DNA of 64,000 nt, taken from Lacticaseibacillus mingshuiensis. GTDB lineage: Bacteria; Bacillota; Bacilli; Lactobacillales; Lactobacillaceae. The notes beneath the pieces were generated by a model. It was given only the letters and a program-made list of their open reading frames with translations, was not told where the DNA came from and did not search any database. Below are positions 53,642-62,403 of the stretch, piece after piece. Location: positions 248,001-312,000 of the forward strand of contig NZ_BOLS01000001.1 in assembly GCF_016861785.1 (NCBI RefSeq). The letters run 5' to 3'. A program made the translations under genes and the position numbers. Position 1 is the stretch's first letter. Each line of letters starts with the position of its first letter.

Positions 53642-54562
53642 ATGGGGACATCTTCGACTGCCGCCAAACAGCTGCTTCAGGCACTTGGCGGCCGCGACAA
53701 CATTGCATCAGTCACACGCTGCGCCACGCGGCTTCGCTTTGTGTTGAAAAATGAGGCGCTCGCGGATAAACAGGCGATCGAACAAAACGCTGCCGTGCGC
53801 GGCTTGATCACAGATGCCGGGCAATTTCAGCTGCTGATAAAAAATGGGTGCACGGACTTCTATCAGAATCTGGTGGCCGTATCCGGAATTCTAGGCAACG
53901 CCAAGGCATCCAGCGCGCGGGTGCCTCTATTGCCGCGTGCTCGCGGCGGGCTATTTTGGTTTCTCCATCGCGTCAAGACCTGGTGGCTCGGCGCAAGATC
54001 ACCGCAAGCGCAAAAACGCCGCCCCACTTCATCTGTGCCCGCTGCTTCAACGTCTGCGGCGACCGACCTCGACTATCTTTACACGCCGGCAGATGGCGCA
54101 GTCGTGCCACTGAGCGAGGTGGCCGACCAGGTCTTTTCAGCGGAGACCGTGGGCCAAGGCTTTGCCGTGCATCCCGTCAGCGGCCATGTTTTCGCCCCGC
54201 TGATCGGCACCGTCCTGTCGGTATTTTCGAGCAAGCACGCGCTGCGCCTGCGCATGAGCAACGGCCTCGAAGTGATGGTGCACATGGGGCTGGACACCGT
54301 TGAGCTCGCCGGCACCCCGTTTTCGATCGCGGTCGAGGTCGGCGACAGTGTCACCCCCACGCGCCTGCTCGCGGAAATGGACCTATCGCAGGTGAAAAAT
54401 AGCGGGCGGGCGACGGATATCGTGGTGATCTTGATCGACCCTGACCGGCGCGGCGGCTATCGCCAAATAACGAGCGGCCTGCATCAGCATGGCGAAAGAA
54501 TTGCCGGCGTCCGCGCGCACCCACCCTCGGCGCATCCGCTTCGAAACGTCTGGTCCGCGTGA
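53642..54562 (+). CDS. Soluble PTS-like EIIB-EIIA protein without EIIC
   Basis: A 306-residue protein. Residues 5-80 are a glucose-family EIIB domain with the phospho-cysteine in IASVTRCATRLRFVL (Cys27). Residues 145-275 are a glucose-family EIIA domain with both histidines: His199 (SKHALRLRM) and His214 (VMVHMGLDTVEL), 15 apart as in EIIA-Glc. The linker of about 60 residues has one short hydrophobic-basic stretch (GGLFWFLHRVKTWWLGARS) but the EIIC domain of about 350 residues is absent. It could serve an EIIC encoded elsewhere, or regulate other proteins. Start follows AGGGGGA. A paralogue follows. Confidence 0.85.
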   Translation: MGTSSTAAKQLLQALGGRDNIASVTRCATRLRFVLKNEALADKQAIEQNAAVRGLITDAGQFQLLIKNGCTDFYQNLVAVSGILGNAKASSARVPLLPRARGGLFWFLHRVKTWWLGARSPQAQKRRPTSSVPAASTSAATDLDYLYTPADGAVVPLSEVADQVFSAETVGQGFAVHPVSGHVFAPLIGTVLSVFSSKHALRLRMSNGLEVMVHMGLDTVELAGTPFSIAVEVGDSVTPTRLLAEMDLSQVKNSGRATDIVVILIDPDRRGGYRQITSGLHQHGERIAGVRAHPPSAHPLRNVWSA

Positions 54563-54768
54563 GGATAAAAAAATTTCTTCTATTATATAATCGCGACCCC
54601 ACAGCCCCGCTCCTCGCAAAGTACCCGGCTATTTATGGTGGTTCAGATACCCCACCTCGCCACCCGCACCGTTCTTGTATCCGCAAACATGCTTGCATTT
54701 GGCCACAAAAGAGTTTACATTATTGTTATTAATTTAGTTGTGGTCAATTCATGCGAGGAGGAATTTTG

Positions 54769-55593
54769 ATGGGCAAGTATGATGCGGATGCCGCCGATCT
54801 GTTGAAAGAACTCGGCGGGCCGAGCAACCTCGTGTCACAGACACATTTTGCCACCCGGATGAGCTTTACCATTAAGGATGACCTGCAGGCGAGCCGGCCC
54901 GGCATCAACGCGATTCCGGCGGTGCAGTCCCTATTCTCCGCGGGCAACCAGTTTCAGGTCGTGATTGGCGAAGACGTCGCGGAGTTTGCGACCGCGTTTG
55001 ACACCGCCTTAACGCAGCCTGAAAAACCGACCGGGGGTTTCGGTGGCTTTCTGCAGAAATTGGGCTTTGGCCATCATCAGGCGGCCCCGGAACCAGCCGC
55101 ACCCGTCACCCCAGTCGCTGAGGCGTCAAACACTGCGCGTTCCTTCGACTATCTCTATCTCCCTGCGGACGGCCCGGTAACGCCCCTTTCCGAGCTGGCC
55201 GCGGATTCCTTTAAGACCCTCGCTGGATTTGCCGTTCGCCCGGCCTCAAACAAAGTCTTCTCCCCTGTCGTCGGCACCGTGACCAGCATCGCCAACAAGC
55301 GCGAGGCCCTCACGATCAAAATGACGACCGGGATCGATGTCCTAGTACACATGGGCTTGGACACGGCTGCACTGGGCGGCCGGCCGTTCAATGTCGTCGT
55401 CCAAGTCGGGGATGCCGTCGATCCAGACACGCTGCTTGCGACCATGGATCTGGTGAGCGTCCGCGGCAGTGCCCGGGCGACCGATATTGTGGTTGCGGTG
55501 ACAGAGGCCGATCAAGTGAAGTCCTTCGAGCCATTACTCACCAGCGGCACCCATCGGCACGGGGACGCTGGGGCATCACTCGATGCAAAATAA
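54769..55593 (+). CDS. Degenerate soluble EIIB-EIIA paralogue
   Basis: A 274-residue paralogue of the preceding gene with the same B-A order and no EIIC. The EIIB phospho-cysteine is replaced by phenylalanine (SQTHFATRMSF, Phe27). In EIIA the phosphorylated histidine is kept (His194 in VLVHMGLDTAAL) but the helper histidine aligns with Glu179 (NKREALTIKM). It could therefore accept phosphate from HPr but hardly pass it on, which suggests a sensor or regulator, not a transporter part. The start at 54769 lies 7 bases after GGAGG, with separate upstream sequence of 200 bp. A bidirectional terminator follows. Confidence 0.83.
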   Translation: MGKYDADAADLLKELGGPSNLVSQTHFATRMSFTIKDDLQASRPGINAIPAVQSLFSAGNQFQVVIGEDVAEFATAFDTALTQPEKPTGGFGGFLQKLGFGHHQAAPEPAAPVTPVAEASNTARSFDYLYLPADGPVTPLSELAADSFKTLAGFAVRPASNKVFSPVVGTVTSIANKREALTIKMTTGIDVLVHMGLDTAALGGRPFNVVVQVGDAVDPDTLLATMDLVSVRGSARATDIVVAVTEADQVKSFEPLLTSGTHRHGDAGASLDAK

Positions 55594-55605: not shown

Positions 55606-55649
55606 AAAATAGCCACGCATTCCTTTTTCGAATGCGTGGCTATTTGTTT
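55606..55649. terminator. Bidirectional terminator between the EIIBA paralogue and the LacI gene
   Basis: AATAGCCACGCATTC and GAATGCGTGGCTATT are perfect 15-bp arms with a 7-nt loop, serving the two converging genes. Confidence 0.9.
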
Positions 55650-55653
55650 GCGC

Positions 55654-56704
<1,051 letters not shown>

Positions 56705-56790
56705 CAGCGTTTAGTTTCCATTATTTAGGAGATGTCACATGAGTTCCACAGTCCACGAAGAGACTTTTGGTAAATTATTTTAGAAAATCA

Positions 56791-56820
56791 TTTACACATT
56801 AGTAAACAAGGTGGTACACT
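56791..56820 (+). promoter_or_regulatory. Promoter of the galactoside ABC operon with overlapping operator
   Basis: -35 TTTACA (56791-56796) and -10 TACACT (56815-56820) are separated by 18 bp. TTTACACATTAGTAAA (56791-56806) is an inverted repeat that covers the -35 box and uses the same half sites as the element at 56692. Confidence 0.65.
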
Positions 56821-56829
56821 CAATTTCGT

Positions 56830-56843
56830 AGAAAGCGGTTACA
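56830..56843. promoter_or_regulatory. cre site (CcpA) of the galactoside operon
   Basis: AGAAAGCGGTTACA matches TGWAANCGNTNWCA at all but the first position. It lies 10 bp after the -10 box, where CcpA binding blocks transcription. Confidence 0.8.
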
Positions 56844-56879
56844 ATTTTAGGGAGACACTTTGAAAGGTGGTCAATTGTA

Positions 56880-58153
56880 ATGAGAAAGTCCGTTGTATTC
56901 GCGGCGATTGGGGCATTAGGCGTGCTCCTTGCTGCATGTGGTCCAGCCAGCAGTTCCTCTTCATCATCGTCCGCGGATTCCGATAGTGGCAAAGCAAAAA
57001 CTTTGACAGTGTGGGCAGACGCAGACAAAGACAAGTCAAACGGTATCAAGGCGGCCGTCAAGACGTTTGAAAAGGACAATAACGTCAAGATCAAGATCGT
57101 CGAAAAAGCTTACGCAAATCAGCTAGAAGACCTGCGGCTGGATGGCCCAGCCGGCACCGGTCCAGACGTCATCACCATTCCTTCAGACCAAATCGGCTCT
57201 GCAACGACTGAAGGATTGCTCAAGGAGCTGACCGTGTCCGAGAGTGACCAAAGCAAATATACGGACTCAGCCATGCAGTCACAGATCGTGGACGGAAAAG
57301 TCTATGGCCTCCCACGAGCCGTCGAAACAACATTCATCTACTACAACAAGAAATTACTGAGCGACAGTGATGTGCCAAAGACAGCTGACGAATGGCTCGC
57401 CTTCTCCAAGAAGCAGGTCGCAGCTGGCAAATATGGTCTATTGGCGCATGGGACCAGTTGTACTACGCCGGTGGGATTCTCAGTTCATATGGCGGTTATA
57501 TCTTTGGCCAAGACAGCAATGGCAACTATAATGCCGACGATATTGGGCTGAACAATGCTGGCGCCGTCAAAGCGGCCACCTATGTGAAGAAGTGGTATGA
57601 CGCAGGCGTCTTTCCAAAGGGTATCTTAGGTGACAACGGTATCAACACCTTGGACTCGCTTTTCACAGAAGGCAAAGCGGCCGCAGTTATCTCCGGTCCT
57701 TGGAACATGGATCCTTATAAGAAAGCCGGCATCGATTACGGGGTAGCGGAACTTCCTACTTTACCGAATGGCAAACACATGAGCTCCTATATCGGCGTTA
57801 AGAGCTGGAACGTCTCTTCCTATTCTAAGAATGGCGACTTGGCTGAAAAGTTGATCAAATTCCTGTCCACAGAAGACAATGCCGAAACGGCGTTCAAAGA
57901 GACCCAGGAAGTGCCAGCCCTCAAGTCGTTGGCCGAAAGTGATGCAGTCAAGGCAAATATTGGGGCTGAGGCCGTTGCCAAGCAGTCTCAATATGCAGAG
58001 TTGACCCCAACAATCTCCGCGATGAATCAAGTATGGGATCCAGCCAACAATGCCATGTCTGTGATCGCCACTGGCAAACAAGCACCAAAGGCAGCGTTGG
58101 ACAGCGCCGTTAAGACGATCAAGAGCGCGATCAAGGCAAACTCGAACAAATAA
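56880..58153 (+). pseudogene. Sugar ABC transporter substrate-binding lipoprotein, interrupted by a frameshift
   Basis: Two overlapping frames together encode one maltose/galactan-type binding protein of about 424 residues. The first frame (56880-57551) has the signal peptide and lipobox LLAACG, a Ser-rich linker and the first lobe up to KKQVAAGKYG. The homology then jumps at about 57438-57440 to the second frame (SIGAWDQLYYAGGILSSYGG to the end at 58153). One missing base there would explain it; adding one restores a plausible KYGLIGAWDQ. It may be a true mutation or a sequencing error. No slippery heptamer is seen. RBS AAAGGTGG precedes the start. Confidence 0.85.
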
Positions 58154-58162
58154 TCAACACTT

Positions 58163-58190
58163 GGCCGGGCGGTTTTGGCCCGGCTTTTTC
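58163..58190 (+). terminator. Weak intra-operon terminator after the binding-protein gene
   Basis: GCCGGGC and GCCCGGC pair around a 7-nt loop, followed by TTTTTC. Such partial terminators let the binding protein mRNA outnumber that of the permeases. Confidence 0.75.
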
Positions 58191-58214
58191 ATTACTCAAA
58201 GCGAGGCGAAGAAC

Positions 58215-59498
58215 ATGGAACAAAAGGTTTCGATCAAAGGCCAGCGAAAACACGCAAAGACCGCCGCACTGCTCTCAATCATTCCGGGCGTCGGTCAATT
58301 GTATAATCGTCAAGTCATCAAAGGACTCTTTTTCCTGATCGTGACGGTATTGTATTTTTACGGCTTTTCTGGCTTGTTCAATATGGGCTTCTGGGGCCTG
58401 ATCACCCTAGGCACAGAAGTTCCGCGCGATAACTCGGTCTTCCTGCTGGCAGAGGGCCTGATCGCCGTCCTGGTATTGGCGATCGGTATCCTTTTCTACT
58501 ATCTGAACATCCGAGACGCTTACAAAAATGGTGAACAACGGGATATGGGGCTGACAGTCCCTTCATTCAAGGCGAGTTTCAGCAATATGATTCACCGAGA
58601 CTACCCCTACTTGATGGTCTCACCGGGTGTATTTCTTCTGATTTTCAGCGTGATTTTCCCCATTCTCTTCAGCTTCGCGCTGGCCTTCACGAACTACAAC
58701 CTTTACCACATGGCCCCAGCCCATCTTGCGGATTGGGTTGGCTTCAAGACCTTCGCGGATATCTTCACCGTCGATATTTGGCGAAGCACCTTCTTCAGTG
58801 TCCTTGGTTGGACTGTGATCTGGACACTGGTAGCCTCAACACTTTCAATCGTTCTCGGCATCTTCTTCGCCGTTCTGGTTCATCAAAAGGATCTACGTTT
58901 CAAGAAATTTTGGCGAATCATCTTAGTCCTCCCTTGGGCAGTCCCAGGGTTTGTCACGATTCTTGTGTTCGCGGCGATGTTCAATGACAGTTTTGGGGCG
59001 ATCAACACCTCGATCTTAAGTTTCTTTGGCATTAAGGCCATTCCGTGGCTGACCGAAGCAAACTGGACAAAGATTGCTCTACTGACAATTCAAGGCTGGC
59101 TGGGCTTTCCATACATCTTCGTTGTGACGACTGGCGTTTTGCAGTCGATTCCAGAAGACCTGTATGAGGCCGCCTTGATGGATGGCGCGAGTGCGTGGCA
59201 AAAATTCCGTAGTATCACCCTGCCCTTTATCCTTATGCAGATGACGCCGATCATCATTACCCAGTACACGTTCAACTTTAACAACTTCAACATCATTTAC
59301 CTGTTCAATGGCGGTGGTCCTGCAATGCCAAACTCAACCGCTGGGGGGACCGATATCTTAGTGTCCTGGATCTATAAGTTGACGCTCAAATCTAATCAAT
59401 ACGCTTTGGCGGCGGCACTCACGATTTTACTATCGGTGTTCGTGATTGCGATCGCCCTATGGCAATTCCGCCGCTCGCATTCATTTAAGGAGGACTGA
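58215..59498 (+). CDS. Sugar ABC transporter permease, MalF/GanP-like
   Basis: A 427-residue membrane protein. The first 120 residues form an extra helical module (LLSIIPGVGQLYNRQVIKGL and two more helices), as in GanP/MdxF-type permeases; the standard six-helix permease domain follows. The coupling motif EAALMDGASAWQKFRSITLP, which docks the ATPase, is intact. The ATG at 58215 has only a modest site (GAGGCGAAG). It lies between the binding-protein gene and the second permease, with 5 bp to the latter. Confidence 0.9.
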   Translation: MEQKVSIKGQRKHAKTAALLSIIPGVGQLYNRQVIKGLFFLIVTVLYFYGFSGLFNMGFWGLITLGTEVPRDNSVFLLAEGLIAVLVLAIGILFYYLNIRDAYKNGEQRDMGLTVPSFKASFSNMIHRDYPYLMVSPGVFLLIFSVIFPILFSFALAFTNYNLYHMAPAHLADWVGFKTFADIFTVDIWRSTFFSVLGWTVIWTLVASTLSIVLGIFFAVLVHQKDLRFKKFWRIILVLPWAVPGFVTILVFAAMFNDSFGAINTSILSFFGIKAIPWLTEANWTKIALLTIQGWLGFPYIFVVTTGVLQSIPEDLYEAALMDGASAWQKFRSITLPFILMQMTPIIITQYTFNFNNFNIIYLFNGGGPAMPNSTAGGTDILVSWIYKLTLKSNQYALAAALTILLSVFVIAIALWQFRRSHSFKED

Positions 59499-59503
59499 TC
59501 ACG

Positions 59504-60358
59504 ATGAAAGAACACAGTATGCATCGCAACAAAGTGATCCGTCTTGGTATCACGTATTTCATCTTGATTCTCATGACACTCATAGTGCTGTATCCACTTG
59601 CTTGGACAGTTGGTGCCAGTTTCAATCCTGGGAATAGTCTCGTCAGCACCACACTGATTCCAAAAAATCCAACGTTTGCTCATTACATTGCGCTGACCCA
59701 AACAACAGCGACCTTCCACTACTTCTCTTGGTTCTGGAATTCAATCAAGATCAGCATTGCGACGATGGTGTTGTCAGTCATTTTCGTTTCAATGACTGCC
59801 TATGCATTTTCACGCTTCCACTTTGTCGGGAGAAAAAATGGGCTGACCATGTTCTTATTGCTGCAGATGATTCCGCAATTTTCTGCGCTCATCGCAATCT
59901 TCGTGCTGGCCCAGATGTTAGGCCTGGTAAACTCCCACCTGCTTTTAATTCTGATCTATACGGGTGGTCAAATCCCAATGAGTACGTATCTCATGAAGGG
60001 ATACTTCGATTCAATTCCACAAGATCTGGATGAAAGCGCCCGGATCGATGGTGCGTCGAATACCCGCATCTTCCTGCAGATATTGATGCCACTTGCTCGA
60101 CCGATGGTGGCAGTCGTTGCAATGAACGGGTTTACTGGTCCACTTGGGGATTTCGCCATTTCCAGTGTCATTCTTCGCGACCCCAAGGCATATACGTTGC
60201 CGATTGGTCTTTATAATCTGATCACCGAGAAAATGGGCGCAAGTTACACCACATTTGCGGCAGGCGCGATCCTGATCTCAGTTCCAGTGGCAATCGTCTT
60301 CTTGATGCTCCAACGCAACTTTGTGACCGGCTTGACTGAAGGAGGAACAAAAGGTTGA
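59504..60358 (+). CDS. Sugar ABC transporter permease, MalG/GanQ-like
   Basis: A 284-residue permease with six helices; the coupling motif is ESARIDGASNTRIFLQILMP followed by LARPMVAVVAMNGF. It pairs with the preceding permease to form the channel. The AAGGAGG site lies over the end of the upstream gene. Its stop codon shares TTGA with the start of the beta-galactosidase gene. No ATPase gene is present, so a shared MsmK/MalK-type ATPase encoded elsewhere is presumed. Confidence 0.92.
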   Translation: MKEHSMHRNKVIRLGITYFILILMTLIVLYPLAWTVGASFNPGNSLVSTTLIPKNPTFAHYIALTQTTATFHYFSWFWNSIKISIATMVLSVIFVSMTAYAFSRFHFVGRKNGLTMFLLLQMIPQFSALIAIFVLAQMLGLVNSHLLLILIYTGGQIPMSTYLMKGYFDSIPQDLDESARIDGASNTRIFLQILMPLARPMVAVVAMNGFTGPLGDFAISSVILRDPKAYTLPIGLYNLITEKMGASYTTFAAGAILISVPVAIVFLMLQRNFVTGLTEGGTKG

Positions 60359-62403
60359 CCCAATCCAAACTACTCAATGTGGATCACCTGCTTCACGGCG
60401 GTGATTATAACCCCGACCAGTGGCTGAATTATCCGGAGATCTTGACGCGTGATATCAAGATGATGAAAGAAGCCAATATCAACACGGTTTCTCTGGGCAT
60501 CTTCGCTTGGTCCGCTTTGGAGCCTACAGAAGGCAATTATCAATTCGACTGGCTGGATGAGGCCTTCGACCGCATCGAAGCAATTCACGGTAATGTGATA
60601 TTGGCAACGCCAAGTGGTGCCAAACCGGCCTGGCTCGCGAAAAAATATCCAGAAGTCCTCCGCACAAACGAATACGACCAAAAACTGCATTACGGTGAAC
60701 GGCATAATCATTGCTTCACCAGTCCGCGCTATCGTGAGGCCGTGCAACGGCTAGACAAGAAATTGGCAGAACGCTACGGCCAGCGAAAGAGTCTGATTCT
60801 GTGGCACATTTCAAACGAACTCGGTGGCGAATGTCACTGTGATCTCTGCCAATCCGCGTTCCGTCAGTGGCTGCGCACACGGTATCAGACACTTGATGCT
60901 TTAAATAATGCGTGGTACACCAGCTTTTGGAGTCACCACTTTGACGCCTGGGATGAGATTCATTCGCCCAGCCCTCTTGGTGACACGACATTATCCGGCC
61001 TCAACGCAGACTGGCGCCGTTTTGTCACCGCGCAAACGATCGACTTTTTTGAAGGCGAAAAGACTGCGATTCGAGCTGCCTCCCCCACAGTCCCAATTAC
61101 GACTAACTTCATGGCAGACGGCCCTGATCTGATGCCATTTCATGGGTTGGATTACGCCGAGTTTGCCAAGCATGTGGATATTGTCAGCTGGGACTGCTAC
61201 CCGCAATGGGCAGATCCGGCCGTAAGCGATGCGCAACTTGGCGCAAAGATCGGCATGATCAACGATTACTTCCGTGGTCTGAAGCAGCAAAATTTTTTGA
61301 TCATGGAATCGACCCCTTCGTTAGTCAACTGGCATCCGGTCAATCGCGCGAAACGCCCTGGTCAACATTTTCTCTCTTCCATGCAGCTGCTCGCCCATGG
61401 CAGCGATAGCGTCCTCTATTTTCAAATACGTCAATCGCGTGGCGCAGCTGAAAAATTTCATGGCGCCGTGATTGCACAGGACGGCAGCAACAATAATCGC
61501 GTCTTTACAGAAGTGAGTGCGGTTGGTGATGCGCTCACGAAACTGACTGGTCTAATTGGTGTGAACAGGCCACGGGCCAAGGTCGCCCTACTTTACGACC
61601 AGCAAAATCAGTGGAATCTAGATGATACCCAGGCTTATTCTCAACAAAGCAAACAATACTGGCAGACACTGCAAAAGCACTACACCTATTTCTGGCAACA
61701 CGACATCCCAGTTGACATCCTCCCGCCTGACGCTGACCTAAGCACCTATCTGTTGGTCATCGACCTGATGCACTACTCGCTCCCGATCGAGCAAAAGACC
61801 AAGCTCGAAGCTTATGTTCAAGACGGTGGCACATTGATTGGAAGCTACCTTTCTGGTCTGACCGATGAGACCGATCTGGCTTATCTGGGCGACTCCCCTT
61901 TGGCAAAGCTGTATGGAATTCAGCGCAATGAGATCGATACGCTCTATCCGCAGCAACAAAATAGTCTTCGTTTTGAGACGCGTACTTACCCCGTGCACGA
62001 CTATGCAGAAGTTGTGAGACCAACTACGGCTGAGTCGATTGCTTCTTTTGAACAGGACTTCTATGCTGGACATCCAGCACTGACTGTTAACAAGTTCGGA
62101 GAAGGACACGCCTATTATCTTGCAGGCCGCAGCACAAGCGACTTTCTCGAGGCGTTCTACCCCCCTCTTCTCAACAAACTCAAAATCAGTGGGTCGCAGG
62201 TCATTTCACCCCTACTAACTGTCTCCGTTCAGACACGGGACAGCTCAGAGGGCCCAGTTTCGTTCATCATGAATTTTTCTGCAGCGCCAGTCGACATCGA
62301 TCTCCTGCAGGCTGGGGTGGACCTATTGACTGGGCATCAACTGACTGCCGGCAAACAACAGCTAGCTGGGTACGGCGTGATCATTTTACAATGCGTCTTT
62401 TGA
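60355..62403 (+). CDS. Beta-galactosidase, glycoside hydrolase family 42
   Basis: A 682-residue cytoplasmic enzyme. Catalytic acid/base is the glutamate in LWHISNELGGECHCDLC and the nucleophile is that in FLIMESTPSLVNWHP. The zinc-cluster cysteines of the family are present (HNHCFTSPRY, then ECHCDLC). A trimerisation domain and a small C-terminal beta domain follow. GH42 enzymes prefer galacto-oligosaccharides or galactan fragments over lactose. The start codon is TTG, overlapping the permease stop, with GGAGG 9 bases ahead. Third-codon GC looks lower than in fruK: 18 of its first 29 codons against 31 of 37 by hand count. Confidence 0.93.
   Translation: MTQSKLLNVDHLLHGGDYNPDQWLNYPEILTRDIKMMKEANINTVSLGIFAWSALEPTEGNYQFDWLDEAFDRIEAIHGNVILATPSGAKPAWLAKKYPEVLRTNEYDQKLHYGERHNHCFTSPRYREAVQRLDKKLAERYGQRKSLILWHISNELGGECHCDLCQSAFRQWLRTRYQTLDALNNAWYTSFWSHHFDAWDEIHSPSPLGDTTLSGLNADWRRFVTAQTIDFFEGEKTAIRAASPTVPITTNFMADGPDLMPFHGLDYAEFAKHVDIVSWDCYPQWADPAVSDAQLGAKIGMINDYFRGLKQQNFLIMESTPSLVNWHPVNRAKRPGQHFLSSMQLLAHGSDSVLYFQIRQSRGAAEKFHGAVIAQDGSNNNRVFTEVSAVGDALTKLTGLIGVNRPRAKVALLYDQQNQWNLDDTQAYSQQSKQYWQTLQKHYTYFWQHDIPVDILPPDADLSTYLLVIDLMHYSLPIEQKTKLEAYVQDGGTLIGSYLSGLTDETDLAYLGDSPLAKLYGIQRNEIDTLYPQQQNSLRFETRTYPVHDYAEVVRPTTAESIASFEQDFYAGHPALTVNKFGEGHAYYLAGRSTSDFLEAFYPPLLNKLKISGSQVISPLLTVSVQTRDSSEGPVSFIMNFSAAPVDIDLLQAGVDLLTGHQLTAGKQQLAGYGVIILQCVF

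Follow-up and report, generated by a model that had tools for sequence, protein, structure and literature searches.

What role could be played by two neighboring proteins of the phosphotransferase system (PTS) when neither carries a membrane domain and one of them has altered active residues? This question is raised by a pair of genes from Lacticaseibacillus mingshuiensis, here termed P1 and P2, which lie within a stretch of 64,000 nucleotides that was analyzed as a whole and is referred to as the window. An earlier note on this DNA had described them as tandem genes for soluble proteins in which EIIB and EIIA are joined by a linker and EIIC is missing, and this description was borne out: both reading frames are found at that place, both products contain the Pfam domains PTS_EIIB and PTS_EIIA_1, and in each a linker of 40-55 residues connects a glucose-family EIIB to an EIIA of the glucose family. 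No EIIC was found between EIIB and EIIA in P1 or P2, either by Pfam search or by alignment to EIIBCA relatives. The EIIA matches (E = 9e-38 for P1 and 7e-25 for P2), together with the conservation of both proteins in L. yichunensis (85% and 94% identity, respectively), argue that the pair is not a product of chance. The features of P1 are:

53642..54562, + strand: P1, soluble EIIB-EIIA protein of 306 aa with intact catalytic residues; L. yichunensis ortholog at 85% identity
53642..53905, + strand: EIIB domain of P1 (Pfam PF00367, PTS_EIIB, 7.5e-15)
53720-53722, + strand: Cys27 codon in the EIIB domain of P1; Cys also in 19/19 other EIIB sequences compared
54071..54511, + strand: EIIA domain of P1 (Pfam PF00358, PTS_EIIA_1, 9.2e-38)
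54236-54238, + strand: helper His199 codon of P1, from position check and alignment
54281-54283, + strand: His214 codon of P1, phosphorylated-type, from position check and alignment

As had been proposed, Cys27, His199, and His214 are all retained in P1, which was confirmed by a position check and, judged from its sequence, P1 keeps the residues required for phosphate relay; the position matching the conserved EIIA threonine, two residues before the helper histidine, is Ser in P1. The EIIA_1 domain exceeds the Pfam cut-off in both proteins, and against TIGR00830 (glucose-type EIIA; cut-off 97.5) P1 scores 117.8 and P2 75.0. Both fail TIGR01992 (trehalose EIIBC; cut-off 591.95), with scores of 80.4 for P1 and 50.3 for P2 that derive from the EIIB part only. 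In the predicted structures, both domains of P1 and P2 are modeled with high confidence and the linkers are disordered. Residues 101-120 of the P1 linker (window positions 53942-54001) form an aromatic and basic stretch, GGLFWFLHRVKTWWLGAR, whose RVKTWW core is retained in L. yichunensis, though the rest of the linker changes freely. This stretch could be a surface or membrane contact; the helix modeled at residues 104-115 is short and of low confidence, its hydrophobic moments are mixed, and a membrane-binding amphipathic helix is not claimed.

In the original list of open reading frames P2 begins at 54751. Its most likely start is instead the ATG at 54769, since this codon follows the ribosome-binding site GAGGAGG at 54754 and yields the N-terminus MGKYDADA, which is common to full-length trehalose EIIBCA proteins. 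With this correction, the features of P2 and its flanks are:

54669..54768, + strand: leader of P2 with the ribosome-binding site GAGGAGG (54754-54760), from alignment to L. yichunensis
54769..55593, + strand: P2, soluble EIIB-EIIA protein and putative pseudo-phosphocarrier of 274 aa; L. yichunensis ortholog at 94% identity, both domains modeled with high confidence
54847..54849, + strand: Phe27 codon of P2, replacing the EIIB phosphocysteine; Cys in P1 and in 19/19 other EIIB sequences
55219..55230, + strand: three-residue deletion in an EIIA loop of P2, FKTLA---GFAV; loop full length in P1 and in 19/19 others
55303..55305, + strand: Glu179 codon of P2, replacing the helper histidine; His in 19/19 other EIIA sequences
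55348..55350, + strand: His194 codon of P2, retained, aligned with the phosphorylated His90 of E. coli EIIA-Glc
55606..55650, + strand: hairpin terminator directly 3' of P2, conserved in L. yichunensis, with a fold of about -27 kcal/mol

The 100-bp leader differs at only 2 positions from that of L. yichunensis and the preceding 100 bp have clearly diverged; the leader is a probable promoter or regulatory region belonging to P2 itself. A consensus scan of the + strand identified no promoter within it. The best match to a CcpA site upstream of P2 carries two mismatches, and no such site is claimed.

The substitutions in P2 agree with what had been read from the sequence originally, with Phe27 in place of the EIIB cysteine, Glu179 in place of the helper histidine, and the phosphorylated histidine kept as His194, and they extend further. 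Ser32 replaces the conserved second arginine of the EIIB loop, Lys177 replaces the conserved threonine two residues N-terminal of the helper-histidine site, and the shortened loop has lost three residues of the motif F-S-x-K-M-x-G-D-G. The EIIB cysteine, the second arginine, the EIIA threonine, and the helper histidine are each present in 19/19 other sequences compared and, save for the threonine, in P1 as well, and P2 as a whole contains zero cysteines. Despite this, both domains remain recognizable: the EIIA Pfam match is at E = 7e-25, the EIIB match reached 26.7 with Pfam (cut-off 27.0) and 30.0 when the genome was searched, and by structure comparison P2 matches EIIA-Glc structures as well as EIIB structures, including the Mlc-bound 3bp8.

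In E. coli EIIA-Glc, changing the helper histidine allows phosphate uptake and blocks its transfer. P2 is a natural helper-histidine variant, and this precedent yields a testable prediction for it. The earlier note had suggested on this basis that P2 could be a dead-end phosphate sensor of HPr, which may still hold as one form of the role that we propose below, but it is weakened by the loop deletion. In EIIA-Glc, the conserved loop that is shortened in P2 lies on the partner-binding face. As the lysine, the glutamate, and the deletion further alter this face, phosphate uptake from HPr by P2 is not to be assumed.

Where did such proteins originate? Comparison of the sequences indicates that P1 and P2 descend from a Lacticaseibacillus trehalose-type EIIBCA transporter by loss of EIIC. 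Their closest full-length relatives are EIIBCA proteins of two congeners (G001 and G008; loci L063 and L064), which reach 684 and 671 bits, respectively, with TIGR01992 vs a cut-off of 592; one of the two is encoded in a trehalose cluster alongside genes for a TreR regulator and a GH65 enzyme. Identity to these relatives is 50-55% in EIIB and 47-51% in EIIA for P1, and 48% and about 45%, respectively, for P2. In a maximum-likelihood tree of the EIIB and EIIA domains, the pair groups with these two EIIBCA proteins with support of 98/96. When aligned to the EIIBCA relatives, P1 and P2 share the first residue, EIIB, and EIIA, and a stretch of ~370 residues corresponding to EIIC is missing. The trehalose EIIBCA proteins of Lacticaseibacillus (TIGR01992) thus resemble the pair in the MGKY N-terminus, the sequence type of EIIB and EIIA, and the B-then-A order, whereas they possess the EIIC that the pair lacks and the catalytic residues that P2 lacks as well. 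The P1 linker bears no significant similarity to EIIC. For the P2 linker, one relative offers a match in the tail that follows its final EIIC segment (p 0.005, with eight comparisons made), which is only suggestive of an EIIC remnant. With a p-AU of 0.32, monophyly of the four pair proteins is neither established nor excluded, and a single EIIBA that duplicated in tandem is an unproven origin of P1 and P2. Family searches of the window's genome returned no complete or recognized trehalose EIIBCA. The same genome contains five GH65-type phosphorylase or hydrolase matches (G000:C9, C10, C12; loci L114-L117).

Given this ancestry, the pair could be no more than a functionless remnant of a trehalose transporter. 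The loss of EIIC, the loss of catalytic residues from P2, the confinement of the pair to two sister species, and a genome devoid of a complete trehalose EIIBCA are all in keeping with such a fate. The pattern of nucleotide change is not. In the one comparison from which dN/dS was obtained, that of the window's species with L. yichunensis, these being the sole two pair-bearing genomes, neither species has a disrupted P1 or P2 reading frame and nonsynonymous changes are much scarcer than synonymous ones, most of all in P2 (P1, p = 6e-13; P2, p = 8e-27; P2 EIIB alone, p = 7e-6). For P1, dN/dS is 0.247 overall, with 0.21 in EIIB, 0.63 in the linker, and 0.063 in EIIA; for P2 it is 0.078, with 0.087, 0.10, and 0.056, respectively. 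The neighboring housekeeping genes are more constrained than the pair (uvrC, 0.016). By this measure both P1 and P2 are under purifying selection, which makes a functionless remnant improbable, as do the conserved leader and terminator of P2. P2 is accordingly not decaying, although its chemistry is largely gone, and it is very likely to be a functional protein. The weaker constraint on EIIB of P1 compared with EIIA (0.21 vs 0.06) and its near-free linker (0.63) would be in keeping with an EIIB step that matters less.

Another reading draws upon the genomic surroundings. Among the 30 Lacticaseibacillus genomes searched, the pair occurs in 2, the window's genome and that of L. yichunensis, in both cases between uvrC and glnQ. 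In several other Lacticaseibacillus genomes, a glutamine-type ABC ATPase gene directly adjoins uvrC. In the window, the gap between uvrC and glnQ also contains a LacI regulator, a sugar ABC importer, and a GH42 beta-galactosidase, and the earlier note had tied the pair to this importer, supposing a control of sugar uptake similar to that of EIIA-Glc over MalK. The adjacency on which this rests is found in the window's genome only. In L. yichunensis, the importer, the LacI gene, and the GH42 gene are absent at this site, the pair directly adjoins glnQ, and no other gene was seen between uvrC and glnQ. Furthermore, the G+C content of the importer cluster is 0.47-0.51 vs 0.61 for the pair, and the hairpin after P2, kept in both species, separates the P2 unit from the cluster. 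Due to these three observations, the LacI/ABC importer/GH42 cluster (window 55654-62403) is most plausibly an independent insertion that came later between the pair and glnQ, and its adjacency to the pair is consequently no argument for function. The gene for the importer's sugar-binding protein (window 56880-58153) is also split in this assembly by a one-base frameshift near 57450 (LLAHG -> DQLYYAGG), which may reflect either a genuine mutation or a mistake in the assembly. The MalK analogy itself comes from E. coli, and inducer exclusion in lactobacilli is normally attributed to P-Ser-HPr. Control of the importer by the pair is therefore very improbable, and the link was not sustained. In L. 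yichunensis (L054, 8990-9080), a second strong hairpin (GTCTGACGCAGA...TCTGCGTCAGGC) lies between the P2 terminator and glnQ; it was not seen at the matching place in the window.

If the neighbors do not reveal a partner, the remainder of the genome might, and it was searched family by family. It encodes one HPr, in which the active-site histidine motif GIHARPA is present. Besides the pair, the genome has two glucose-family enzymes II, one NagE-like with the domain order CBA and one MurP-like with the order BCA; both carry an EIIB and an EIIA of their own, and the EIIA of each retains the two histidines. A glucose-family EIIC-only gene, which would speak for ordinary transport by the pair, was looked for in the genome and not found, as no EIIC of this family lacks its own EIIB and EIIA; the only free EIIC genes, two in number, belong to the lactose/cellobiose family, and a further EIIC lies inside the window within a fructose-type PTS gene. 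Candidate regulators were searched for as well. The genome yielded no PF00874 match, which argues against a PRD regulator as the target of the pair, and no TreR match above the cut-off (best 132.7 vs 211.95).

These results bear upon the possibility that P1 is a spare donor, whose EIIA feeds the EIIB of other glucose-family transporters with its own EIIB as a passenger and P2 as a modifier or competitor. Cross-phosphorylation between EIIA and EIIB of the glucose family has been shown in B. subtilis (PMC6148471), and EIIA is the most constrained part of P1, more so than its EIIB. On the other hand, as the NagE-like and MurP-like proteins each own an EIIA with both histidines, no transporter in the genome needs P1 as a donor. 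Such a role would also leave P2 unexplained, and we consider it unlikely.

Soluble EIIBA proteins need not be transport parts, as is evident from B. subtilis, in which HPr phosphorylates the free EIIA PtsA (YpqE), which in turn supplies several EII proteins, and in which an EIIBA separated from its EIIC allows little growth on glucose (PMC6148471). The role of the pair is probably regulatory or that of a phosphate relay rather than transport. Our preferred interpretation, to which we assign about an even chance, sees P1 as a soluble phosphocarrier supplied by HPr and P2 as a pseudo-phosphocarrier, both descended from a trehalose EIIBCA and serving a regulatory role. Firstly, the ancestral transporter lost its EIIC, so that only a flexible linker connects EIIB with EIIA, and the pair would have entered the gap between uvrC and glnQ before the window's species and L. 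yichunensis diverged from their common ancestor. Secondly, phosphate would pass from HPr to His214 of P1 and on to Cys27 of its own EIIB; with no EIIC to deliver it to a sugar, P1 is most likely a soluble phosphocarrier, whose phosphorylation state would report PTS flux. Thirdly, P2 cannot carry phosphate on its EIIB and very probably cannot pass any onward from its EIIA. Since its fold and sequence have been kept by selection despite the lost chemistry, P2 is most likely a binder, either of P1 or of the same partner as P1. Together, P1 and P2 would report or modulate the state of the PTS. More tentatively, P2 might work purely by binding in tandem with its intact twin, in which case a trehalose transporter would have given rise to a signaling pair free of any transport function.

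A related but distinct scenario is that the pair captures a regulator stoichiometrically through unphosphorylated EIIB, as EIIB-Glc does with Mlc, with P2 as the permanently binding form. The predicted EIIB fold of P2 is intact and matches EIIB structures, 3bp8 among them, and its sequence is constrained despite the lost phosphocysteine. In the known case, as is generally understood, EIIB is held at the membrane, whereas P2 has no membrane part, and we regard this scenario as rather unlikely. Orphan PTS proteins of lactobacilli are common and mostly unexplained, and here is a recent, clade-restricted pair of which the ancestor type and the site are known, and in which one copy is intact and the other deprived of most catalytic residues, with selection acting on both. 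It allows direct tests of whether PTS domains can be converted from sugar transport to pure signaling and whether a phosphocarrier role can survive the loss of its chemistry.

When compared with known systems, the pair falls within a familiar category. PMC2848229 counts 14 incomplete or orphan PTS in L. casei ATCC 334, and EII proteins missing at least one domain are common among lactobacilli, much like the pair. Orphan PTS are already known in these bacteria, and the EIIBA pair appears to be a variant of them. Among the matches listed in a similarity survey of about 700 Lactobacillales genomes, there were no other EIIBA proteins devoid of EIIC; of the short EIIA or EIIB frames considered as candidates (L055-L062, L118-L123), most are pieces of EIICBA or EIIBCA genes that a frameshift or the end of a contig interrupts, and the others are stand-alone EIIA or EIIBC genes or overlapping frames that are spurious. 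Plasmid relatives of P1, among the matches listed, were only ordinary PTS proteins with <60% identity. What sets the pair apart is the tandem arrangement of two EIIBA proteins of which one is degenerate; our surveys returned no other case, and the passages considered from PMC2848229 name none among the orphan PTS of lactobacilli. PtsA of B. subtilis (PMC6148471) is, like the pair, a soluble glucose-family EIIA without a transporter of its own, but it is an active donor without an EIIB, and B. subtilis possesses EIIA-less transporters for it to serve, whereas no glucose-family transporter in the window's genome lacks an EIIA. The triosephosphate isomerase-EIIB fusion (NCBIfam NF011497) likewise places a glucose-family EIIB outside of a membrane transporter, although this EIIB is fused to an enzyme and has no EIIA. 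Lastly, the E. coli EIIB-Glc-Mlc complex (PDB 3bp8) provides an example of the EIIB fold as a regulatory binding module, as may hold for the pair, with the distinction that EIIB-Glc is part of a membrane transporter and its binding depends upon phosphorylation, whereas the pair is soluble.
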